From NCBI GenBank assembly GCA_947471985.1, contig CANIZL010000076.1:1-33858 (forward strand): 33,858 nucleotides of DNA, read 5' to 3'. Below the pieces are notes generated by a model. It worked only from the letters and a program-made list of their open reading frames with translations, had not been told where the DNA came from and searched no databases. Shown one piece after another: positions 483-19,126 of the stretch. Numbering within the stretch: the first letter of the stretch is position 1; each line of letters starts with the position of its first letter. Origin of the DNA: Verrucomicrobiota bacterium (GTDB lineage Bacteria > Verrucomicrobiota > Verrucomicrobiia > Limisphaerales > UBA9464). The translations under genes were made by a program, and so were the position numbers.

Positions 483-1778
483 ATGCCACTTTCGCGCTCC
501 ACATCCTTCGCCCACAACACGCTCAGCATCATCATGGGAGGCGGCCAGGGCACGCGCCTGTTCCCGCTGACCAGTGAACGCTCCAAGCCCGCGGTTCCGC
601 TCGCCGGCAAATACCGGCTGGTCGACATTCCCATCTCCAACTGCCTGAACAGCGGTCTGAACAAAATCTTCCTGCTCACCCAGTTCAATAGCGCGTCGCT
701 GCATCGCCACATCAGTCAGAGCTTCAAGTTCGATCACTTTTCCAACGGGTTCGTCGAGATCCTCGCCGCCGAGCAGACTTTTGCCAGCACCAGCTGGTAC
801 CAGGGGACGGCCGACGCGGTCCGGAAGAACCTGATGCATTTCAAGAACTCCAACTTCGACTACGCGCTGATCCTGTCCGGGGATCAGTTGTATGCGATGG
901 ACTTCCGCGAAGTGCTGCAAACGCACATTGAAAACTCCGCCGATTTGACGATCGCCACCATCCCGGTGCCGAAATCGGAGGCCACGGCCTTGGGGCTGAT
1001 GCAGGTCAACCGCGAACGCCGCATCACCCGTTTCGCCGAAAAGCCCAAGGATCCGGCCCTGTTGGAATCCTTCCAGATCCCCCGGTCCAGCTACCCCGAA
1101 TTTGGGATCACCCGCGACGAGGATCTCTACCTGGCCTCGATGGGGATTTACGTCTTCACGCGCGAGGTGTTGTTCGATCTGCTGGACAACAACCTCACCG
1201 ACTTCGGCAAACACATCATTCCCGGAGCGATCGATTCGCGGCGCGTCTTCTCCTACATCTACCAGGGATACTGGGAGGACATCGGTACGATCCGCAGCTT
1301 CTTCGAAGCCAATCTGGATCAGGCGGCCGAACATCCGCGCTTCAGTTTTTTCCAGCCGCCGGTATTCACCCGGCCGCGCTTTTTACCGGCGTCCAAGATC
1401 AACTCCGCCGCCATCGACCACGCGATCATCGCCGACGGCTGCATCCTCAACCACTGCCGCGTCCAGCATTCCGTCATCGGCGTGCGAGCCACCTTGGGCG
1501 AAGGTTCCCTGGTCAATCGGGTAGTCATGATGGGATCGGACTACTTTGACACCACGGAACGGTGCAATCGCCCCGAAAACCGCGGCATACCGCTGGGCGT
1601 CGGTCGCAATACCCGCATCGACAATGCCATCATCGACAAAAATGCGCGCATCGGCGAGAACTGCATCCTGAGTCCGGCTGGTAAGGCGGAGAATGTCGAT
1701 CACCCGCTGTATTACGTCCGCGACGGGATCCTGGTGATTCCCAAGCACGCGGTCATCCCTCACGGCACCGTCATTTGA
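483..1778 (+). CDS. glgC: Glucose-1-phosphate adenylyltransferase
   Basis: This enzyme makes ADP-glucose from glucose-1-phosphate and ATP, the committed step of bacterial glycogen synthesis, in the cytoplasm. The 431-residue product has the nucleotidyltransferase signature MGGGQGTRLFPLT near the N-terminus, then RSKPAVPLAGKYRLVDIPIS and NCLNSG. SWYQGTADAVRKN, the LSGDQLY motif and FAEKP follow, and the C-terminal half is a left-handed beta-helix with hexad-like repeats. The length fits the family (420-430 residues). The frame is open upstream to 222, but homology begins just after the ATG at 483 and the upstream part is low-complexity, so I chose 483. No clear Shine-Dalgarno site is visible. 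The stop overlaps the next gene's start. Confidence 0.95.
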   Translation: MPLSRSTSFAHNTLSIIMGGGQGTRLFPLTSERSKPAVPLAGKYRLVDIPISNCLNSGLNKIFLLTQFNSASLHRHISQSFKFDHFSNGFVEILAAEQTFASTSWYQGTADAVRKNLMHFKNSNFDYALILSGDQLYAMDFREVLQTHIENSADLTIATIPVPKSEATALGLMQVNRERRITRFAEKPKDPALLESFQIPRSSYPEFGITRDEDLYLASMGIYVFTREVLFDLLDNNLTDFGKHIIPGAIDSRRVFSYIYQGYWEDIGTIRSFFEANLDQAAEHPRFSFFQPPVFTRPRFLPASKINSAAIDHAIIADGCILNHCRVQHSVIGVRATLGEGSLVNRVVMMGSDYFDTTERCNRPENRGIPLGVGRNTRIDNAIIDKNARIGENCILSPAGKAENVDHPLYYVRDGILVIPKHAVIPHGTVI

Positions 1779-2884
1779 AGCTGTCTTCCCTGTTTACCGC
1801 ACGGCAAAGCCTCCGTACGCCCGGGGTTTTGGCCATCCTGGCCGGTTGGATCCAACTGCTGGCTGCGGCGGGCTCCCCGGAGCTGCTCCGCGAGTTTGTC
1901 TATGATCAATCGGCACCGACGCCGGAGTGCCACGCGTCCACCCTGTGCGAAATCCCGGGAGGCATTGCGGCGGCGTGGTTTGGGGGCACTCGCGAAAAGG
2001 CGCCGGATGTCGGCATCTGGTTCAGTCGCCGCGAAGATGCCGGCAACAGCGGGCGTTGGAGCGCCCCGGTCGAACTCTTTAATGGCGTGGGCGCGGGGAC
2101 CAACGGCACCCGCCTGCCTTGCTGGAATCCTGTGCTGTTTCAGAACAAGGGCGATCAGTTGACGCTTTATTACAAAGTCGGCCCCAGCCCGGATACCTGG
2201 TGGGGCCTGCTGTCGACCAGCGCCGATGGCGGCCGCACCTGGACCCCGCCACAACGCCTGCCCGGCCAACACCTCGGGCCGATCAAAAACAAGCCGGTTC
2301 GCACGAGTGACTCCTTTCTGGTGTTGCCATCCAGTACGGAAAACCACGGCTGGCAGGTGCTCTTTGAACGCCACGCGCCCTTGGACGGGCGTTGGAGCTA
2401 TGGAGAGCCCGTCCCCGATCCGGCGAATCTCCAGGGAATCCAACCGACCGTTCTCCAACTCTCCGGCGGCCGACTTGCCGCCCTGGGTCGAACCCGCCGG
2501 GCGGGCGTCCTGTTCCGGACCGTCTCGAGCGACCAAGGTGTCACCTGGTCACCGTTGGCCGCCACGGACCTCCCCAATCCGAATTCCGGTGTCGACGCAG
2601 TGACCCTGGCCGATGGTCGACACCTGCTCGTTTACAATCATACCAAGGCCGGGCGCACGCCCCTGAATGTGGCCCTCAGCTCCGACGACGCGACCACGTG
2701 GTCGGCGGTCCATACCCTGGAAAGCGAGCCGGGGGAGTACAGCTATCCGGCGGTGATCCAAACGTCCGATGGACGGATTCACATCACGTACACGTGGCAT
2801 CGCACGCGCGTGCGCCATGTGGTTTTGGAGTCCGGAAAGTTCCAACCCCGCCGGATCGTGGGCGGAATTTGGCCGGCGCCCTGA
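1775..2884 (+). CDS. Exported sialidase-like beta-propeller protein (BNR/COG4692 type)
   Basis: The 369-residue product has a hydrophobic N-terminal segment (about residues 15-32) that could be a signal peptide or anchor. It is followed by a propeller with three Asp-box motifs of the S-x-D-x-G-x-T-W type: STSADGGRTW (about residue 147), SSDQGVTW (about 251) and the degenerate SSDDATTW (about 302). The segment AAWFGGTREKAPDVGIW is typical of the predicted-neuraminidase family COG4692. The substrate is unknown; family members are often labelled exo-alpha-sialidase without biochemical proof. The start is a TTG sharing bases with the glgC stop (TTGA, 1775-1778), implying translational coupling. 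Another ATG-start frame is not available near the signal segment. Confidence 0.8.
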   Translation: MKLSSLFTARQSLRTPGVLAILAGWIQLLAAAGSPELLREFVYDQSAPTPECHASTLCEIPGGIAAAWFGGTREKAPDVGIWFSRREDAGNSGRWSAPVELFNGVGAGTNGTRLPCWNPVLFQNKGDQLTLYYKVGPSPDTWWGLLSTSADGGRTWTPPQRLPGQHLGPIKNKPVRTSDSFLVLPSSTENHGWQVLFERHAPLDGRWSYGEPVPDPANLQGIQPTVLQLSGGRLAALGRTRRAGVLFRTVSSDQGVTWSPLAATDLPNPNSGVDAVTLADGRHLLVYNHTKAGRTPLNVALSSDDATTWSAVHTLESEPGEYSYPAVIQTSDGRIHITYTWHRTRVRHVVLESGKFQPRRIVGGIWPAP

Positions 2885-5436: not shown

Positions 5437-8400
5437 TTACTGGGGAGGAATGGTCACCAGGCAGATGGTCGTCGGAGTACCGGTATGGCACTTGGTGGTG
5501 CAGGTACTCTTGGGACAGGAGGTGGTCGTCGTTTGGCATCCACCCAGATACTTGACGGCATCTTGTAGATCCTTCGACGGCGACGAAGTGCTGCAGGCCA
5601 TATTCAAGATCTCCAGAACCGTCTTGCCTCCGCAGGAACCCGTCCCATAAACGCCGAGGGCGAAGGCCGGGTGGTTGGCAACGTTCAACTCCGCCGACAT
5701 CAAGCACCGGTGGTACTCGTCGTTGGTGTTGTTCAAGAGCGACATCACTTGGGTCACCGTCTTGGTGCTGCAATGCGGCGTTTTCGTGATGATACCTTGC
5801 AGCTGGGTGGTGGTGTAGTGGCTGCTGCAACCCGCCCACTCGGTAGGCGTCGTGATCAGGTCGCACGCCGGAGTGGAAGTGGTACCGCCCGGAGTACCGG
5901 GCCGGCAATCCGTCAAATCCAGGGCCAAAGCGCCAGATCCACTGGTCGCCAGAGTGGCACCGCAGGCTTGCACATTCCGGGTGTAGGTGAAGGTCCCACT
6001 GGCACCCCAATTGAGATTCTTGCCATTCGCTCCCACACCCAACTGGAAGCTCGGTCCGGAGCTGGTGACGGTCAGTACCGCCCCCTGATACCCGCCGAAT
6101 CCGGTCATCGTTCCGGAGAACGAGGTGTAATAACTCCAGGTCGCCGGGTTGATGGTCCCGCCATTCTGGATGTACTTGGACGGGCTCAATCCCAACACCG
6201 GGCTACCCGCGGGGCTCGTGGGCACCGTGGTGGTATACCCGCTCAGGTTGAGCGTCACCATAAACCCGTTGTCCCGGTTGGCGCGGCTGCGAATGTAACC
6301 AGTGATCTTGGCCAGGCCGCCGGCCAGTTCCGAAAATTGGCCCGAAACCGGATCAAAGATGAAGTCGGTGCCAATGCCCGTCAGCGAGAACGCCCAGCCG
6401 GCTTCTGTCACTGAGGACATATTGGAAACCAGGCACGCCTCTCCGCAATTGCCTTCACCACCGGCACCCAGATAGAGGACCGTGTTCAAGAGTGCCGTCG
6501 GAGCAGAAGCCGCCGCAGTGTTGTAGGCAATAGTTAGAACCTGCAGCACCGTCTTGCCAGCATAGGCACCGGACGCCGTATAGGTTCCAGCCCCAAAGCT
6601 CGGATTGAGCGCGACATTCAGTTCCGCCGCCATCAAATGCCGGTTGTATTGATTCGCATTGTTGTTCAAGATCGCTTCCACTTGCGCAACCGTCTTGGTC
6701 TTGTAGTGGGGCGTATTGGCGATGATTGACTGGAATTTAGTCTGGGTATAGTGATTCTTCCAGTTCTTCCAATATCCGGGACTGGAGATGAATCCACACA
6801 GCGGCGCCCCGACCGTAAAGGCAGCTTCGTCGACGCAGAGGTCGGCGTAGTTCTGCACCAAGCCGGCATCAATGGTCAGCTTCTGTTCACCCGTCAGGAC
6901 CGTGAACGCAGTGGACACGCCCGAGGTGGTTTCGATATCGCTATCGATCGCATCACTGGCGTTTGCGTTGGCATCCCGGGCGGTGAACCCGAAATTGGTC
7001 GGCGCCGTCACGCGGATACGGTATGTACCCGCGTTGACGTTGCGGAAGGCATACTTGCCGCTGGCGTCGGTGTTGGTGGAGGTCAGGACCGTGGTTCCCG
7101 CGGAACCGGAGAGCAACTCGACGAGCACGCCCTCTTTGCCCACTTCACCCGTGTCCTGCAATCCGTTGCCGTTGGCATCCAGCCAGACAAAGTCACCCAC
7201 CGAGGCCAACAGAGGCAGCGAGGGTTCCTGATAGTAGCCGAAATCCACGTCGGAGCGGGTCTGGTTCGCCGCCACCGTCACCGTCGCCCGATTGGGCGAA
7301 ACAAACGGTCCATGGCCGTCATCCACGTCGTAGGACGGAGTGCCAGGCACACCCGAAACCACCACCGTGTACGTTCCCGCTTCCAAGCCCGTGAACAGGT
7401 ATTGTCCACTCGATCCGGTGGTCGTGGTCTGCAGCACAGTGCCGTTCTGCTGGAGTTGCACCTGCGCCGCGGGCAAGCCCGGTTCGCCAGTGTCCCGGAC
7501 ACCGTTGTTGTTGATATCGTTCCAAACCAAGTCGCCAATAGCGGAGTTAAGAACGGGCTGACGTGCGGCGTAGCCGAAGTCGAACGACCGGTTGTCTTCG
7601 CCGGGGTTCAAGAGACTGCTCGCCTGGTTGGGCGTGTTGAACCCGCTCAAACGGAAGCCGTCATCGAGGTCATAGGTCGGATCCACCGTCAAACCGCTCG
7701 GTAGTTGCACCACCACCGTATAGTTGGCCGCCGGCAGGTTATCGATCAGATACTGACCATTCACGTCCGTCGTAGTGGTATAGGTACCCGCCGTCAGGGA
7801 CGTGGCAGTGATCAGGGCGCCGGAGATACCGACCTCCGCGGCACCATCCTGAACACCATTGCGATTGACGTCGAGCCAGACCGTGTCGCCGATCGAGCCC
7901 AGCGGCTGATAGCCGAAGTCCAAAGTGTAACGAACCTCACCCGCCGCCAGCGTAAACACCGCCGTATGGGGCGTGGTCACCGCACCGCTCTGATTGTCGA
8001 AATCCCAGGTGGGGATGTGCCGCGTGGGCGGATTGAGCACCGTCAACCGGTACGTTCCGGGAAGGAGATTGGTGAAGGTATAGAAACCATTGGCATCCGT
8101 CGTCCGGGTGTCCACCGAGGACTCAACCCCGTTGACGATCTGGGACAGCGCCACCGTCCGGCCGACAATACCGGTTTCACCGGAGTCCTGCGCGCCATTG
8201 CCATTATAATCCAACCAAACACGATCGCCAACCGAGGCCAGCTTCTGGAAGCCGAAGTCAACATCGGTACGGGTCTGACCCGCGGCCAATTCAACGACCG
8301 TCGACAGAACTGTGGTAAAGCCGGTCAACCGGGCGCCATCATCCAAATCATACGTCTGACGATAGCCGGGAGGCGGCGTAACACTGACCACGTAAGTGCC

Positions 8401-10317
8401 CGCGGGGAGTTCGAGGTCGCCCACGGAATAGAAGCCGTTCTGGTCGGTCGTCGTCGTATATTCGGCGGCCGGCAAATCCACGGTTTCCGCACGCGTGATG
8501 GTAATCACCGCACCCACAAGACCAGACTCGCCACTATCCTGAATACCATTGGCGTTGGCATCATCCCAAGCGCGGTCGCCCAAGGTTCCGCCGGCATAGC
8601 CAAAGTCGATGTCGTCGCGGTTTTGTCCCGGGATCAAATCGAACGACGCCGCGTCCGCACTATTAAATCCTCCCGGAGGCGAATTCTGATCGTCGTAATC
8701 GTAGGTCTCGATATAACCCGGTGCCGGCGTGGCCAGAACCGTATAATGTCCGGCCGGCAATCCCGTGAAGAGATAATGGCCGCTAGCATCCGTCGCCGTG
8801 GTGGCAAGAATCGTGCCCGCGGCATCCCGCAAGGACACCTGCACACCGGGCATGGCCGGCTCGTCGTTGTCCTGCTGGCCATTGCTGTTCCGATCAATCC
8901 AAACGAGATCACCGACACTCGCGTCAATCTGTTGGTAGCCAAAATCCAGATCCTCACGGCGCTCGCCCGTGACAATGGTCACACTCGCACTGTTGGCGCT
9001 GGCAAATGTTCCGCCCGCCGGAGTTCCGTCGTCGAGATCATAGGACTGCCGGAAAGTGGCCGCCACACCGCTAACCACCACCGTATAATCCCCACCCGCG
9101 AGGTCGGTGAACAGGTACTTGCCGTCGGTATCCGTCAGCTGCGTCGCCAGCGGCGTCGTCAGATTGGAGGACGCATACAGGGTCACCGTCAGGTTCGGGT
9201 ATCCCGGCTCGTCCGCATCCTGCACGCCGTCGCCATTCACGTCTTTCCAGACGCGATCACCGATGGATCCAACGGGCTGGTAGTAGCCAAAATTCACATC
9301 CTTTTGGAATTGTTGACTCACGATATAGAGGAATGCCGCATTCGGGGACGACGGCAGTGCCGGCCAGAGCGTAATCCCGTCGTCCATGTCGTAGGACTGC
9401 GAATAACCCACGGGCTGTGAGACGGTCACCCAGAAAAGCCCGAAACCGGGACTCTCGGAAATCGAAACTCCAGTAAACAGGTAATTGCCGTTGGCATCCG
9501 TCACCTGGGAGGGCACTCCCGGCACCGGTTGCTCAAACATATCCAGCAGCGTGACCGTAACGCCGGCCATCCCGATTTCGTTACCCTGTGGATTGCCATC
9601 CTGATTGATGTCCAGCCAGACCTTACCGCTGATCGCGGCATCGGTCGGCGTATAATTGTAAACCACTTCCAAGTCAGCCCCTACTTCGGTGGAAATCTGG
9701 AACGAGATGGTGTCCGCTCCCGTGGCCACTGCCACGCCTTCGCCAATCAACCCCAGAGTGGTGTCGCCCGTGCCGACAAAAGAAGTGAACTCCACGCTGC
9801 CCGGTTGAAACTGAATCGTGGCGTACCCATCCGCCGAGAGCGGCGGATCGATCACAAACCCCGAGCCCTCAGTTCCCCCGCTGCCGGCGTAATCTGTCGT
9901 TCCGTCATACGCCGTCGCTTCGTAGCTGGTGGTGATACTGGGAGAATTTCCCAGCAAGGCGGACGAATAATCAGAATTAAAAACCGTAATCTGCCCCGTT
10001 GATCCAACGGTCAGGGTTCGTGCGGCGGGATCCAGATTCTCCGCCCGGGGCGTCGAACGGACGTGGCCGGTCAGGCGGAGTTCCACGCTGTTCAGCGTAC
10101 CGATCGCCGGATTGAACTTCGGAATCGTTTGAGGATGCGACCACGGCGACGGCTGGTTGTTAACCGTAACCGGCTCGGTCACCACCGAAGCCAAATAGCT
10201 GATGGTTAAATCCGAGGCGGCGGCCGTAACTCCAGCGGCCACAGCCGCCCCGAGGGTGATTATTCTGGGAGCCAAGCCCAGCCAGAGTCGTCGACTCCAG
10301 TCTTTTTGAGATTTCAT
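5437..10317 (-). CDS. Giant exported surface protein with eight SdrD B-like repeats
   Basis: The 1626-residue product has a signal peptide (about 1-36) and a choice-of-anchor-like N-terminal domain (about 37-225). Eight SdrD B-like domains follow, beginning near residues 228, 349, 464, 575, 690, 805, 924 and 1037. Each opens with a motif like GDxVWxDxNxNGxQDxxE, whose aspartates usually bind calcium, and most end in DFGY. A C-terminal part follows: a module with GYWKNW (about 1172-1294), an unassigned beta-rich domain (about 1295-1480), a second copy of the module (about 1483-1592) and a cysteine-rich tail. No LPXTG, PEP-CTERM or type IX sorting signal is visible, so the mode of attachment is unknown. 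An adhesive or structural surface role is inferred. It converges on moaE across a terminator. Confidence 0.9.
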   Translation of the reverse strand: MKSQKDWSRRLWLGLAPRIITLGAAVAAGVTAAASDLTISYLASVVTEPVTVNNQPSPWSHPQTIPKFNPAIGTLNSVELRLTGHVRSTPRAENLDPAARTLTVGSTGQITVFNSDYSSALLGNSPSITTSYEATAYDGTTDYAGSGGTEGSGFVIDPPLSADGYATIQFQPGSVEFTSFVGTGDTTLGLIGEGVAVATGADTISFQISTEVGADLEVVYNYTPTDAAISGKVWLDINQDGNPQGNEIGMAGVTVTLLDMFEQPVPGVPSQVTDANGNYLFTGVSISESPGFGLFWVTVSQPVGYSQSYDMDDGITLWPALPSSPNAAFLYIVSQQFQKDVNFGYYQPVGSIGDRVWKDVNGDGVQDADEPGYPNLTVTLYASSNLTTPLATQLTDTDGKYLFTDLAGGDYTVVVSGVAATFRQSYDLDDGTPAGGTFASANSASVTIVTGERREDLDFGYQQIDASVGDLVWIDRNSNGQQDNDEPAMPGVQVSLRDAAGTILATTATDASGHYLFTGLPAGHYTVLATPAPGYIETYDYDDQNSPPGGFNSADAASFDLIPGQNRDDIDFGYAGGTLGDRAWDDANANGIQDSGESGLVGAVITITRAETVDLPAAEYTTTTDQNGFYSVGDLELPAGTYVVSVTPPPGYRQTYDLDDGARLTGFTTVLSTVVELAAGQTRTDVDFGFQKLASVGDRVWLDYNGNGAQDSGETGIVGRTVALSQIVNGVESSVDTRTTDANGFYTFTNLLPGTYRLTVLNPPTRHIPTWDFDNQSGAVTTPHTAVFTLAAGEVRYTLDFGYQPLGSIGDTVWLDVNRNGVQDGAAEVGISGALITATSLTAGTYTTTTDVNGQYLIDNLPAANYTVVVQLPSGLTVDPTYDLDDGFRLSGFNTPNQASSLLNPGEDNRSFDFGYAARQPVLNSAIGDLVWNDINNNGVRDTGEPGLPAAQVQLQQNGTVLQTTTTGSSGQYLFTGLEAGTYTVVVSGVPGTPSYDVDDGHGPFVSPNRATVTVAANQTRSDVDFGYYQEPSLPLLASVGDFVWLDANGNGLQDTGEVGKEGVLVELLSGSAGTTVLTSTNTDASGKYAFRNVNAGTYRIRVTAPTNFGFTARDANANASDAIDSDIETTSGVSTAFTVLTGEQKLTIDAGLVQNYADLCVDEAAFTVGAPLCGFISSPGYWKNWKNHYTQTKFQSIIANTPHYKTKTVAQVEAILNNNANQYNRHLMAAELNVALNPSFGAGTYTASGAYAGKTVLQVLTIAYNTAAASAPTALLNTVLYLGAGGEGNCGEACLVSNMSSVTEAGWAFSLTGIGTDFIFDPVSGQFSELAGGLAKITGYIRSRANRDNGFMVTLNLSGYTTTVPTSPAGSPVLGLSPSKYIQNGGTINPATWSYYTSFSGTMTGFGGYQGAVLTVTSSGPSFQLGVGANGKNLNWGASGTFTYTRNVQACGATLATSGSGALALDLTDCRPGTPGGTTSTPACDLITTPTEWAGCSSHYTTTQLQGIITKTPHCSTKTVTQVMSLLNNTNDEYHRCLMSAELNVANHPAFALGVYGTGSCGGKTVLEILNMACSTSSPSKDLQDAVKYLGGCQTTTTSCPKSTCTTKCHTGTPTTICLVTIPPQ
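5540..6800 (-). repeat. Duplicated C-terminal module flanking an unassigned domain
   Basis: Two copies of a module of about 110 residues lie at roughly 6436-6800 and 5540-5870. They align along HYTxTxxQxII, TPHxxTKTVxQV, LNNxNxxYxRxLMxAELNVA and GKTVLxIL. The second copy has gained several cysteines (for example HCSTKT, YHRCLM, GSCGGK, YLGGC) that the first copy lacks. Between them sits a glycine- and threonine-rich domain I cannot name. Confidence 0.75.
6850..9640 (-). repeat. Eight tandem SdrD B-like repeat units in the surface protein
   Basis: Units of about 105-125 codons repeat head to tail at the protein level. Conserved anchors are the opening GD-VW-D-N-NG-QD motif, a central TDxxGxYxFTxL segment, a YDxDDG segment and a closing DFGY. 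The DNA of the units has diverged, so this is an old duplication series rather than a recent expansion. Unit 6 has an extra residue in the calcium-loop region (QDGAAEVG). Confidence 0.85.
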
Positions 10318-15343: not shown

Positions 15344-18300
15344 ATGGCAAAGATAAACAACAATTATCATTGTGCTTATCGGCACGTGATGGCCGCCGCC
15401 GGCGCTTTCTTCGCAGCGGCTTCGGGCTGGGCGGAAGATTTATCCGTCGCGTACGGGCCCTCCTCGGTCTTCCTACAGAACGTTGATGCCAATGGGTGGT
15501 CGGAAACCAAGCTCATTCCCCGGTTCAATCCGCAGATCGGCACTCTCACCAGCATCGAACTTCAGCTCACCGGCTATGTTCGATCCAACATCCGCGTGGA
15601 AAATGAGGATCTCGCCCGCGGATACTCGCTGAACGTCGGTTCGTCCGGTGCGGTCAGTCTTTACAATCCGGCCACGACCTTCTCGTTCCTCAACGTCGGC
15701 GTGCAAGCGACCGTAAGTCAGGACGTCGACCTGTACGACGGCACCACCGATTCCGCCGGAGCTTCCGGTTTCCAAGTGGATCCGCCCATTTCCAACTCCG
15801 CCCAGAATCACCTCGAACTCCAACCGTCGGACAGTGAATTCGCGGGCTTCATTGGGACCGGAAACATCAGCCTGGGCATGATCGGGCAGGGATCCAAGAT
15901 CGTGAACGGTGGCCACCCCAATAAAACGGCGGCACCGATTGCAACGGAAGTCGGGGCCGATTTGCAGGTCATTTACTTCTATACCACGGAAACGGCCGCC
16001 ATCGAGGGCCGCGTCTGGCTCGACGCCGATCAAAACGGCATCGTCAACCCCGGTGAGGTCGGCATTCCCAATGTCACCGTGACGCTGACCGACTGGTTCG
16101 GCAATGCCGTGCCCGGCGTGGCTTCACAGACCACCGACAACCAGGGTCGATACACCTTCACCGGCGTCGACGTGCCCGACGCGTATGGCTCCCTCTTCAA
16201 CGTCACGATCAGTCAACCCGGGCCCTACATGCCCACCTACGACTTTGACGACGGCGTCACCGGAGTTCCGTCCTCGCCCAACCAGGCGGTCCTCTTCGTG
16301 GTCCCGCGTCAGTATCTGCAGGAGGTGAACTTCGGTTTCTATGATCCGAACGCCCTCCCGCCGGTAACGGCCTCGATCGGTGACTTCGTCTGGCATGACG
16401 TCAACGGCAATGGCCTGCAGGAAGCGGGCGAGACCGGCATCAATGACGTGGTGGTAACCCTGCTACGCTGCGACGGAACCCCGACCGGCTTGACCACCAC
16501 CACCGCCACGGTGGGTGGCGTGGCCGGATACTACGGATTCAGCAACCTGCCGACCGCCTGCTACAAGGTTCAATTTGCCACGCCGGCAGGCTACCTGCCG
16601 AGTCCGGCCAATCAGGGGGCCGACGACTCCAAGGACAGCGACGCAGTCAATGGCGTGACCGGGAATTACCTGCTGGTGGACCCGATGATCAATAACCGGA
16701 CGGCGGACGCCGGATTTTATCAACCGGCAAGCCTCGGCGACTTCGTGTGGAACGACGTAAATTCCAACGGCATCCAGGATGCGGGCGAATCCGGTATTAA
16801 CGGCGTCGTTGTCACTCTGCTGAATTGCGACGAAACTCCAACTGGATTGACCACGACCACAGGCACGGTGGGCGGGGTATCGGGCTACTATATGTTCGGC
16901 AATCTGGCGCCGGGTTGCTACAAGGTGCAGTTCGCCACGCCCGCCGGCTATGTGCGCACGCTGGCCAACGTCAATGGCACCACGCCCGGCGGCGATTCCG
17001 TGGACAGCGATTCCGTCGGCGGTACCACTGGCAATTATCAACTGACCTCCGGTGAACACAATACCACCGCCGACGCCGGCTTCTATCAGGCCGGCCCCAG
17101 CCTCCTGCTAACCAAGGCCGCCAGCACCCCCAGCGCTGATCCGTTCGATGCCGTCACTTACGCCTATACCGTCCAGAACACTGGCAGCTCGACGCTCAGT
17201 AATATCGTGGTGACCGACAACAACGGCACCCCCGCCTTCGCTGGCGACGACTTCACCGTGGGCACCATCCCCACTCTTCCGCCGGGATCCATGATCACGC
17301 TCACGGCCCAAGTGACCCCCGTGGTTTCCACCACCGCGGTGGCGAATGGCACCAACGTCGCCCCGGGCACCATCATCGTTCTGCGATTGGCCAACGGCGA
17401 CATCAAGGTGACCTACGTCATGAGCTCCGGCGTCAATGACAACACCTACGGCACCGGCTCGATCGGTTGGACCCCGAGCCACAAATTCAATGAAATCAAA
17501 GACACCGATAAGCTGGAATTCCGCTTTTCGGACGGGAGCGGATCAACCGTCCTCGATTTCTACGTCGACCTGATCTCCGCCGCCAATAGCGTCACCGTGC
17601 CCGGTACCGGTCAGGCAATTAGCTATCCGTCCGGCTTCGGCACGCTGGGGCCCGTTGGAGGGGACGGCTCCATGGTCACCGGCAGCGTTAACAATATTGT
17701 CAGCTTCTCCACCTCGCTTTCGGACAACCTGAATCTCGCGGCGAACGTGCCCAAGAAGGCCTCTCTCGCGGTTGATTCACCGACCAAGCTGGTGGGCGGA
17801 GTGCTGGTCGTGGATGCGGCGAAGGCTCCGGGCGGATGGGATCCGGTGCTGAGTTACACGGTGGTCGTCAAGGCGGCGGCCTTCGGAGCGGCCGGCTTCG
17901 GCGGCGTCGCCATTCCGGACCAGATGAATTCGCCCTCCAAATTAGGCGTAACCCAGCTCGTCGCGACCGCGAAGAACAGCACCGTGGTCAACACGGCCAA
18001 GGCCACCAGCGGCACATTGTCCTCCACCGCCACGGCGTCGGTGGATGTTGTGGTCCCCCCTGGCCCCCTCCCCCCGCCCTGCCAAATGATGGTCGTCGCC
18101 AAAAAACTCGCGAGGGCGGAAGTCCAAATCACGGTCACCAACTCGGGTCTCGCCGACATCGTCCTGACCGGCTTCAACCTCAGCTGGCCCGCCACCAGCG
18201 GTAAGCTGAAGCAGGTCAAATTCGACGGCGACGTCGTCTACGACAACCCCGATCTCACGTCGCCGGCCACGGTTACTTCCTCGCAGTTGGTCACCAACCT

Positions 18301-19126
18301 CGTCAAACGCACCATCGCCCACGGTACCAGCGATGTCATTCACCTGATCTTCGAGAAGGATGGCAAGGGAGATGAACTGATCGACTACACGGGGTCGTTT
18401 ACCTTCGGAACCTGTTCCGTGGCGATCCTGCCCGGCTGTAACTGCAACCTGGGTTATCCGTTTGTCAGCGCCAACCCGCTGACCAGTATTGTCTTCAACG
18501 AGAGCGACATCCTGCGCCTGCTGGAGCCGGAGGACGCTACGGCCGGAGACACCATCCGGGTATACTACAACGACGAACGGGCCCTGCTGCTGGGCGTTCG
18601 CAACGGCACCGCCCTCCCCGTCTCCCCCTTGTCCACGAATCCGGGACACGTGGTGAACCCGGCCGTGGGTGACAAGTCGGTCCATGACCCCGCCGGTCGC
18701 CCGATCTTCCCGGCGCTCTTCATCACTGACATCACCGGGATCAGCGACAACGCCGGCTTCACGAGTCCGCAATACCGTGCGGGCGATTGGCAGTTCGGTG
18801 GCACACCGATCCCGCCGCACGAAATCTTCGGATCCTGGAAGGGCGCGGTGAAAACCGGCGCCGACCTCGTGACCGATGCCGATCCAGCCAAGAACAACTG
18901 GAATCTGGGCGCCGGCAGTGACATCCCCCTCACCGGATTCGCCCTGCTGCAAAACGAAGGGTTTGGAACCGAGATCCGTTGGAACGTCAATGACCTGCGG
19001 GTGGGCGGCCTACCCCTTCAGGCGGGCCACACCTATCGCATCCAGGTGATGGTGCACGACGGAGATCAGAACAAGGTCGGCGGCGACGTAGGCCAAGCCT
19101 GCGTGGTCGTGACGATCAAGCCCTAA
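15344..19126 (+). CDS. Second giant surface protein (choice-of-anchor, SdrD-like, DUF11-like modules)
   Basis: The 1260-residue product has a signal peptide (cleavage near GWA-ED, residue 30). Its N-terminal domain (31-215) is homologous to that of the 5437-10317 protein: shared I-P-K/R-F-N-P-x-I-G-T-L, then S-x-E-L-x-L-T-G, and YDGTTD. Three SdrD B-like domains follow, starting near residues 220, 343 and 462. A DUF11-like domain (LLLTKAAST, about 584-670) comes next, then a module with VNDNTYGTGSIGW (about 673-880). After a proline hinge (PPGPLPPP), the C-terminal part includes FNESDILRLLEP, YPFVSANPL and VMVHDGDQNKVGGD. Similar C-terminal modules occur in other bacterial surface proteins as I recall. 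No sorting signal is seen. An intrinsic terminator follows 18 bases after the stop. Confidence 0.9.
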   Translation: MAKINNNYHCAYRHVMAAAGAFFAAASGWAEDLSVAYGPSSVFLQNVDANGWSETKLIPRFNPQIGTLTSIELQLTGYVRSNIRVENEDLARGYSLNVGSSGAVSLYNPATTFSFLNVGVQATVSQDVDLYDGTTDSAGASGFQVDPPISNSAQNHLELQPSDSEFAGFIGTGNISLGMIGQGSKIVNGGHPNKTAAPIATEVGADLQVIYFYTTETAAIEGRVWLDADQNGIVNPGEVGIPNVTVTLTDWFGNAVPGVASQTTDNQGRYTFTGVDVPDAYGSLFNVTISQPGPYMPTYDFDDGVTGVPSSPNQAVLFVVPRQYLQEVNFGFYDPNALPPVTASIGDFVWHDVNGNGLQEAGETGINDVVVTLLRCDGTPTGLTTTTATVGGVAGYYGFSNLPTACYKVQFATPAGYLPSPANQGADDSKDSDAVNGVTGNYLLVDPMINNRTADAGFYQPASLGDFVWNDVNSNGIQDAGESGINGVVVTLLNCDETPTGLTTTTGTVGGVSGYYMFGNLAPGCYKVQFATPAGYVRTLANVNGTTPGGDSVDSDSVGGTTGNYQLTSGEHNTTADAGFYQAGPSLLLTKAASTPSADPFDAVTYAYTVQNTGSSTLSNIVVTDNNGTPAFAGDDFTVGTIPTLPPGSMITLTAQVTPVVSTTAVANGTNVAPGTIIVLRLANGDIKVTYVMSSGVNDNTYGTGSIGWTPSHKFNEIKDTDKLEFRFSDGSGSTVLDFYVDLISAANSVTVPGTGQAISYPSGFGTLGPVGGDGSMVTGSVNNIVSFSTSLSDNLNLAANVPKKASLAVDSPTKLVGGVLVVDAAKAPGGWDPVLSYTVVVKAAAFGAAGFGGVAIPDQMNSPSKLGVTQLVATAKNSTVVNTAKATSGTLSSTATASVDVVVPPGPLPPPCQMMVVAKKLARAEVQITVTNSGLADIVLTGFNLSWPATSGKLKQVKFDGDVVYDNPDLTSPATVTSSQLVTNLVKRTIAHGTSDVIHLIFEKDGKGDELIDYTGSFTFGTCSVAILPGCNCNLGYPFVSANPLTSIVFNESDILRLLEPEDATAGDTIRVYYNDERALLLGVRNGTALPVSPLSTNPGHVVNPAVGDKSVHDPAGRPIFPALFITDITGISDNAGFTSPQYRAGDWQFGGTPIPPHEIFGSWKGAVKTGADLVTDADPAKNNWNLGAGSDIPLTGFALLQNEGFGTEIRWNVNDLRVGGLPLQAGHTYRIQVMVHDGDQNKVGGDVGQACVVVTIKP

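Follow-up and report, generated by a model that had tools for sequence, protein, structure and literature searches.

Other choice-of-anchor E proteins end in known sorting tails. The protein described here shares their N-terminal domain, and its own C-terminus consists of two modules and a tail. We named the module GYWKN in the present analysis, after its motif. The protein also shares SdrD_B stalk domains with the staphylococcal MSCRAMM proteins SdrC and SdrD, but its scores of 388 bits (cut-off 1700) and 349.2 bits (cut-off 2500) place it in neither family. A stand-alone GYWKNWKNHYT protein (L004, on JAKOPZ010000102.1, a Chloroflexota MAG) has the same module over its length, and differs in having a single copy and in a mature protein that would be the module alone. 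Disulfide cross-linking of the envelope is described for Chlamydia (PMC6752827).

The window, i.e. the whole stretch of 33,858 nucleotides that was analysed (contig CANIZL010000076.1 of a Verrucomicrobiota bacterium), encodes at 5437-10317 what is, by its sequence, a secreted surface protein of very large size. Its parts, and a paralogue lying 5 kb away in the opposite orientation, are as follows.

5437..10317, minus strand: mosaic surface protein of 1626 amino acids carrying both modules (ORF and translation)
10216..10317, minus strand: signal-peptide-like segment, residues 1-34 (hydropathy; cleavage site by eye)
9652..10164, minus strand: choice-of-anchor E domain (NCBIfam NF033208, E 3.8e-25)
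6859..9636, minus strand: stalk of 8 SdrD_B-like stretches (Pfam PF17210, E 5.1e-161; limit at 9636 by eye)
6466..6804, minus strand: GYWKN module copy 1, residues 1172-1284, with one core cysteine, C1174 (alignments with copy 2 and L004)
5872..6438, minus strand: middle beta domain, residues about 1294-1482 (profile matches, alignments and model)
5542..5871, minus strand: GYWKN module copy 2, residues 1483-1592, with six core cysteines (alignment and helical model)
5440..5541, minus strand: C-terminal Cys- and Thr-rich tail, residues 1593-1626, with 5 Cys (sequence; pLDDT below 50 over model residues 116-144)
15344..19126, plus strand: paralogue with choice-of-anchor E, SdrD_B, a DUF11-type repeat and another C-terminal domain (profile matches and alignment)

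At the N-terminus, the best 19-residue stretch within the first 45 residues has a mean hydropathy of 1.64. The choice-of-anchor E domain reached 89.2 bits against the curated cut-off of 23.8 for NF033208, and the eight stalk stretches 526.3 bits against the gathering score of 29.7 for PF17210, which places both in their families. The C-terminal 468 residues are unnamed: modules 1 and 2 and the middle domain gave no Pfam or PHROGs match at E ≤ 10, and an NCBIfam scan of the two modules up to E 10 gave no match either.

The sequence-only reading had placed a duplicated C-terminal module, its two copies flanking a beta-rich domain, at 5540-6800, and had proposed aligning the two copies and searching for single-copy homologues. 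Copy 1 (1172-1284) and copy 2 (1483-1592), which lie in one ORF, are identical at 53 of 110 aligned residues, with a score of 255 that stands well above the shuffle background (maximum 61 in 2000 shuffles). The duplication is thereby borne out at the expected location, the parts extending slightly further, up to 6804 and down to 5440. LMSAELNVA and GKTVLEIL are kept in copy 2. Within the same genome, the whole C-terminal region used as a query matched this gene only (up to E 10), and the matches of a three-row profile were the two copies only (up to E 0.001).

The domain between the modules was indeed modelled as beta-rich (mean pLDDT 66.3), and comparison of the model with the PDB pointed to LpqH-, dirigent-, AbyU- and avidin-like barrels with Z up to 7.7, which is a common arrangement; the best Foldseek match had E 0.14. 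Its one NCBIfam match was weak (E 0.05; its 12.5 bits fall far below the cut-off of 504). Among 146 genomes of the order, a profile of the domain had matches in 4, namely that of the window, G067 (two places, both of them profile rows), G947 and G068. The match in G068 was partial and contained a stop, and this partial match (L042) was left out. The domain precedes SdrD_B in L002 and L041. A cysteine near each end is common to all four rows, and C1291 aligns with the edge cysteine in 4/4 rows, C1295 being equally likely by eye. The middle domain forms an independent unit that also occurs in further proteins of this order.

The 17 cysteines of the window protein all lie after residue 1160, and since their number is odd at least one of them would be free or bonded outside the chain. 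Those in or around module 1 are at 1161, 1174, 1291 and 1295, only 1174 falling within the aligned core, and the middle domain has two, at 1452 and 1471. Residues 1483-1626 contain the other 11, six in the aligned core of copy 2 and five in the tail, which is an enrichment over the remainder of the protein (11 in 144 residues versus 6 in the other 1482; binomial P 2.7e-11, for a boundary picked after viewing the sequence). The claim that the first copy is almost free of cysteine and the second rich in it holds for the aligned cores (1 versus 6) and fails at the edges of module 1, where cysteines are present. C1485 of copy 2 aligns with C1174 of copy 1 and is shared. In a three-row alignment, those gained in copy 2 are C1497, C1516, C1538, C1562 and C1575 in the core and C1594 at the start of the tail; opposite them stand, in this order, W, Y, H, Y, Y and G in copy 1 and W, F, H, F, Y and N in L004. 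Five of the six replace aromatic or His residues (hypergeometric P 1.4e-4). When the comparison is restricted to codons one step from a cysteine codon, the bias is 4/5 (P 0.16, not significant), so that codon accessibility accounts for most of it and the replacement pattern may be largely mutational.

The search for single-copy homologues yielded L004, the sole relative among 43 stretches from the genome_contigs scan. It is identical to copy 1 at 60 of 124 positions (BLASTP E 3e-41), which makes it a member of the GYWKN module family, and to copy 2 at 47 of 116. Read from an internal ATG, it consists of a signal-like segment (by eye) and one module alone. The gene upstream encodes SdrD_B domains, and the downstream gene is similar by eye. 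Copy 1 and L004 have SPGYWKNWKNHYT in common; copy 2 has TPTEWAGCSSHYT instead, and its hallmark motif is altered to TPTEWAGCSS. The cysteines of L004 are found only near its two ends. L004 is without the extra cysteines of copy 2, so these look derived, a direction that is supported with L004 as the reference and that does not make them idle. A relative rate comparison gave 24 sites at which copy 1 agrees with L004 and not with copy 2, and 13 of the reverse kind (P 0.10, not significant). None of the genomes searched yielded an orthologue of copy 2. Of the earlier interpretation, the part that is supported is duplication with specialisation of one copy, on the strength of the motif lost from copy 2 and of its cysteines absent from copy 1 and L004; the relative rate comparison leans the same way, though not significantly.

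A model of copy 2 built from eight rows (mean pLDDT 76.9, pTM 0.74) has seven helices of at least 4 residues, with block means of pLDDT between 80 and 95 over residues 11-110 and below 50 over 116-144, which lie in the tail. The five models ranged in mean pLDDT from 76.9 down to 58.2, two of them lying near 60. A compact and helical fold of copy 2 is supported by this prediction. According to the DSSP line, two of the six core cysteines are in loops and two at the ends of helices of three residues; of the remaining two, one adjoins a helix end and the other is within a helix. Foldseek returned no PDB chain under E 0.001 (best E 2.4), a missing match that does not amount to a new fold, and one VIA row was obtained against the PDB (Z 2.5, rmsd 4.3, 76 aligned). 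No viral model matched under E 0.001. Sequence searches of the PDB gave no match with the single sequence or with A8, and two weak ones with A7 (E 0.29 and 1).

Further members of the family were collected with profiles. The whole C-terminal region as a query matched 1 of 115 other near genomes, in the middle domain only, and the three-row profile had no match in 386 further genomes of the window's own phylum. In the phylum of L004 this profile matched 4 of 400 genomes at E 0.01, those of L004 itself, L008, L009 and L010, the last of which was dropped as spurious, being the opposite strand of a sensor kinase. With a five-row profile, 4 of 301 genomes of that phylum were matched, three being sources of profile rows and one giving L036; in the window's own order this profile found 1 of 194 other genomes (L038, E 8.3e-4). 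An eight-row profile matched 1 of 47 genomes of the order of G405, namely G405 itself. By these searches the close form of the module is rare. Comparison of the three-row profile by hhalign gave 96.8% over 29 columns only for L008, 92.0% over 41 columns only for L009, 71.0% over 53 columns for L038 and 16.6% over 13 columns for L018. These matches are short, and it is chiefly the N-terminal part of the module that carries them. The TPGYWKNHPxAWP modules of L018 and L038, both from the window's phylum, are identical to each other at 56 of 119 positions. They are like the GYWKN module in their C-terminal location, their opening motif and a block around 'LN', and differ from it in that the similarity is low; kinship with these PGYWKNHP members is probable, and common ancestry is likely for the module of L038. 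SdrD_B domains precede the module in L018.

In all six relatives (L004, L008, L009, L036, L018 and L038) the module ends the protein, and all start with an export-signal-like segment by eye; L036 is a close orthologue of L009. In the window protein the end is formed by copy 2 and the tail, and copy 1 is internal. Given this terminal position in the relatives, the module probably acts at one protein end.

Of the readings considered we prefer one, with a probability of roughly 0.4, in which copy 1 keeps the ancestral role and copy 2 became a disulfide-braced end cap after duplication of a terminal module. The module would work as a docking or capping domain at the protein end. After the duplication copy 1 would have retained the motif and, presumably, the role of the ancestral module. 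Copy 2 would have lost the motif and gained five cysteines where copy 1 has aromatic residues or His. The cysteines of copy 2 and the tail would then form intramolecular disulfides, stiffening the terminal module into an end cap.

A main rival, which takes up the envelope cross-linking named in the sequence-only reading, is that of disulfides between molecules, by which copy 2 and the tail would lock the protein either to itself or to a different protein of the envelope, in the manner of the chlamydial outer-membrane complex. We regard this as unlikely. The odd number of cysteines and their confinement to the part after residue 1160 would suit such cross-links, as would a tail with 5 Cys in 34 residues and low model confidence, and disulfides in the chlamydial envelope (PMC6752827) offer a precedent; the paralogue in the window, however, has 10 Cys in 1260 amino acids and is without a cysteine-rich tail. 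Copy 2 might on the other hand be a relaxed, drifting duplicate, its cysteines being no more than changes to codons one step away. The loss of the hallmark motif, the 24 changes against 13 in copy 1 (not significant) and a residue bias that loses significance once codon accessibility is considered would all be expected of drift, but copy 2 keeps LMSAELNVA, GKTVLEIL and a compact predicted fold, and both the five further cysteines of the tail and the overall enrichment (P 2.7e-11) argue against it, so that this reading too is improbable to our minds.

A role of these cysteines in binding a metal or cofactor, such as zinc, an iron-sulphur cluster or haem held covalently at CTTKCH in the tail, appears highly improbable. 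CTTKCH has the CX3CH arrangement, which turned up in 2.5% of 20000 shuffled versions of these residues (6.9% for the looser CX2-4CH pattern), but the stretch occurs just once and no family was matched.

Whether the modules stand where an anchor would be expected was considered from the choice-of-anchor E proteins of the same genome. There are four matches to this domain, the window protein, the paralogue and two on contig C35. The paralogue is identical to the window protein at 228 of 574 positions over the best stretch. The two on C35 are adjoining short proteins (L046, 1402-3183, minus strand) ending in VPEAETYVAGLALVG...RR, and by eye these tails look like an anchor tail; they fall below every anchor cut-off (LPXTG E 0.44, PEP-CTERM FxDxF E 0.015). 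PEP-CTERM was matched 25 times in this genome at up to E 1, in every case over the cut-off but in four cases only together with neighbours in the frame, and the short C35 tails are not among the 25; in control genomes the short PEP-CTERM model matched 7 of 14, 2 over the cut-off. For the window protein, the NCBIfam scan gave no PEP-CTERM match, none of the 25 lies on contig C76, and no LPXTG model is among its 7 NCBIfam matches up to E 1. The best mean hydropathy, 0.96 in one of the short C35 tails and 0.83 over the final 80 residues of the window protein (there inside module 2), separates the two poorly. The same N-terminal domain thus comes before different C-termini, which fits, though weakly, with the GYWKN modules taking the place of an anchor.

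The module is unnamed in Pfam, NCBIfam and PHROGs and forms the terminus of secreted surface proteins in at least two phyla; at the sensitivity used, no solved structure is clearly like it. If GYWKN attaches proteins to cells, this would contribute to an explanation of how stalk proteins that lack known sorting tails are retained, and the two copies, one with the motif and one with the cysteines, offer a natural contrast for testing attachment. The broad form of this idea, a family of C-terminal helical modules that dock secreted stalk proteins without LPXTG or PEP-CTERM in at least two phyla, with copy 2 as a covalent disulfide lock, strikes us as quite doubtful.

Several further candidates were set aside. 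A PGYWKN DNA pattern matched 24 of 387 genomes of the window's phylum (2 for the reversed control); 22 of the 24 places were, by eye, other proteins or chance frames, the GYWKN modules being those of the window and L018. In viral contigs the pattern of module 1 gave 9 stretches and profile A2 59, none of them a relative, PGYWKNW gave three, all short chance frames, and PGYWKNHP none. A tblastn search with module 1 returned only three plasmid records at E 7 and two phage records at E 2, and L004, L008 and the module of L018 had no match among plasmids. Matches of NF052345 (anammox S-layer) to L008 (E 0.14, over linker and motif), of TIGR02369 to L009 (E 0.014) and of two PHROGs to L004 (E 0.16 and 0.2) were not believed. 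A literature search on GYWKN-type motif strings gave nothing related, and one combining SdrD B-like with Verrucomicrobia gave no hit.

Two neighbouring observations concern other domains. The C-terminal domain of the paralogue (NCNLGYPF...GDVGQACV), not named in the library scans, is shared with L002 (118 of 250 identical), and that of L003 is alike by eye. In L038, the GYWKNHP-module protein (1441-2370, minus strand) has a thioester match in NCBIfam at E 0.061 only, and its N-terminal part holds GWCVEAY and VQNAIWWF, which we take to resemble the motifs of thioester-forming adhesins.
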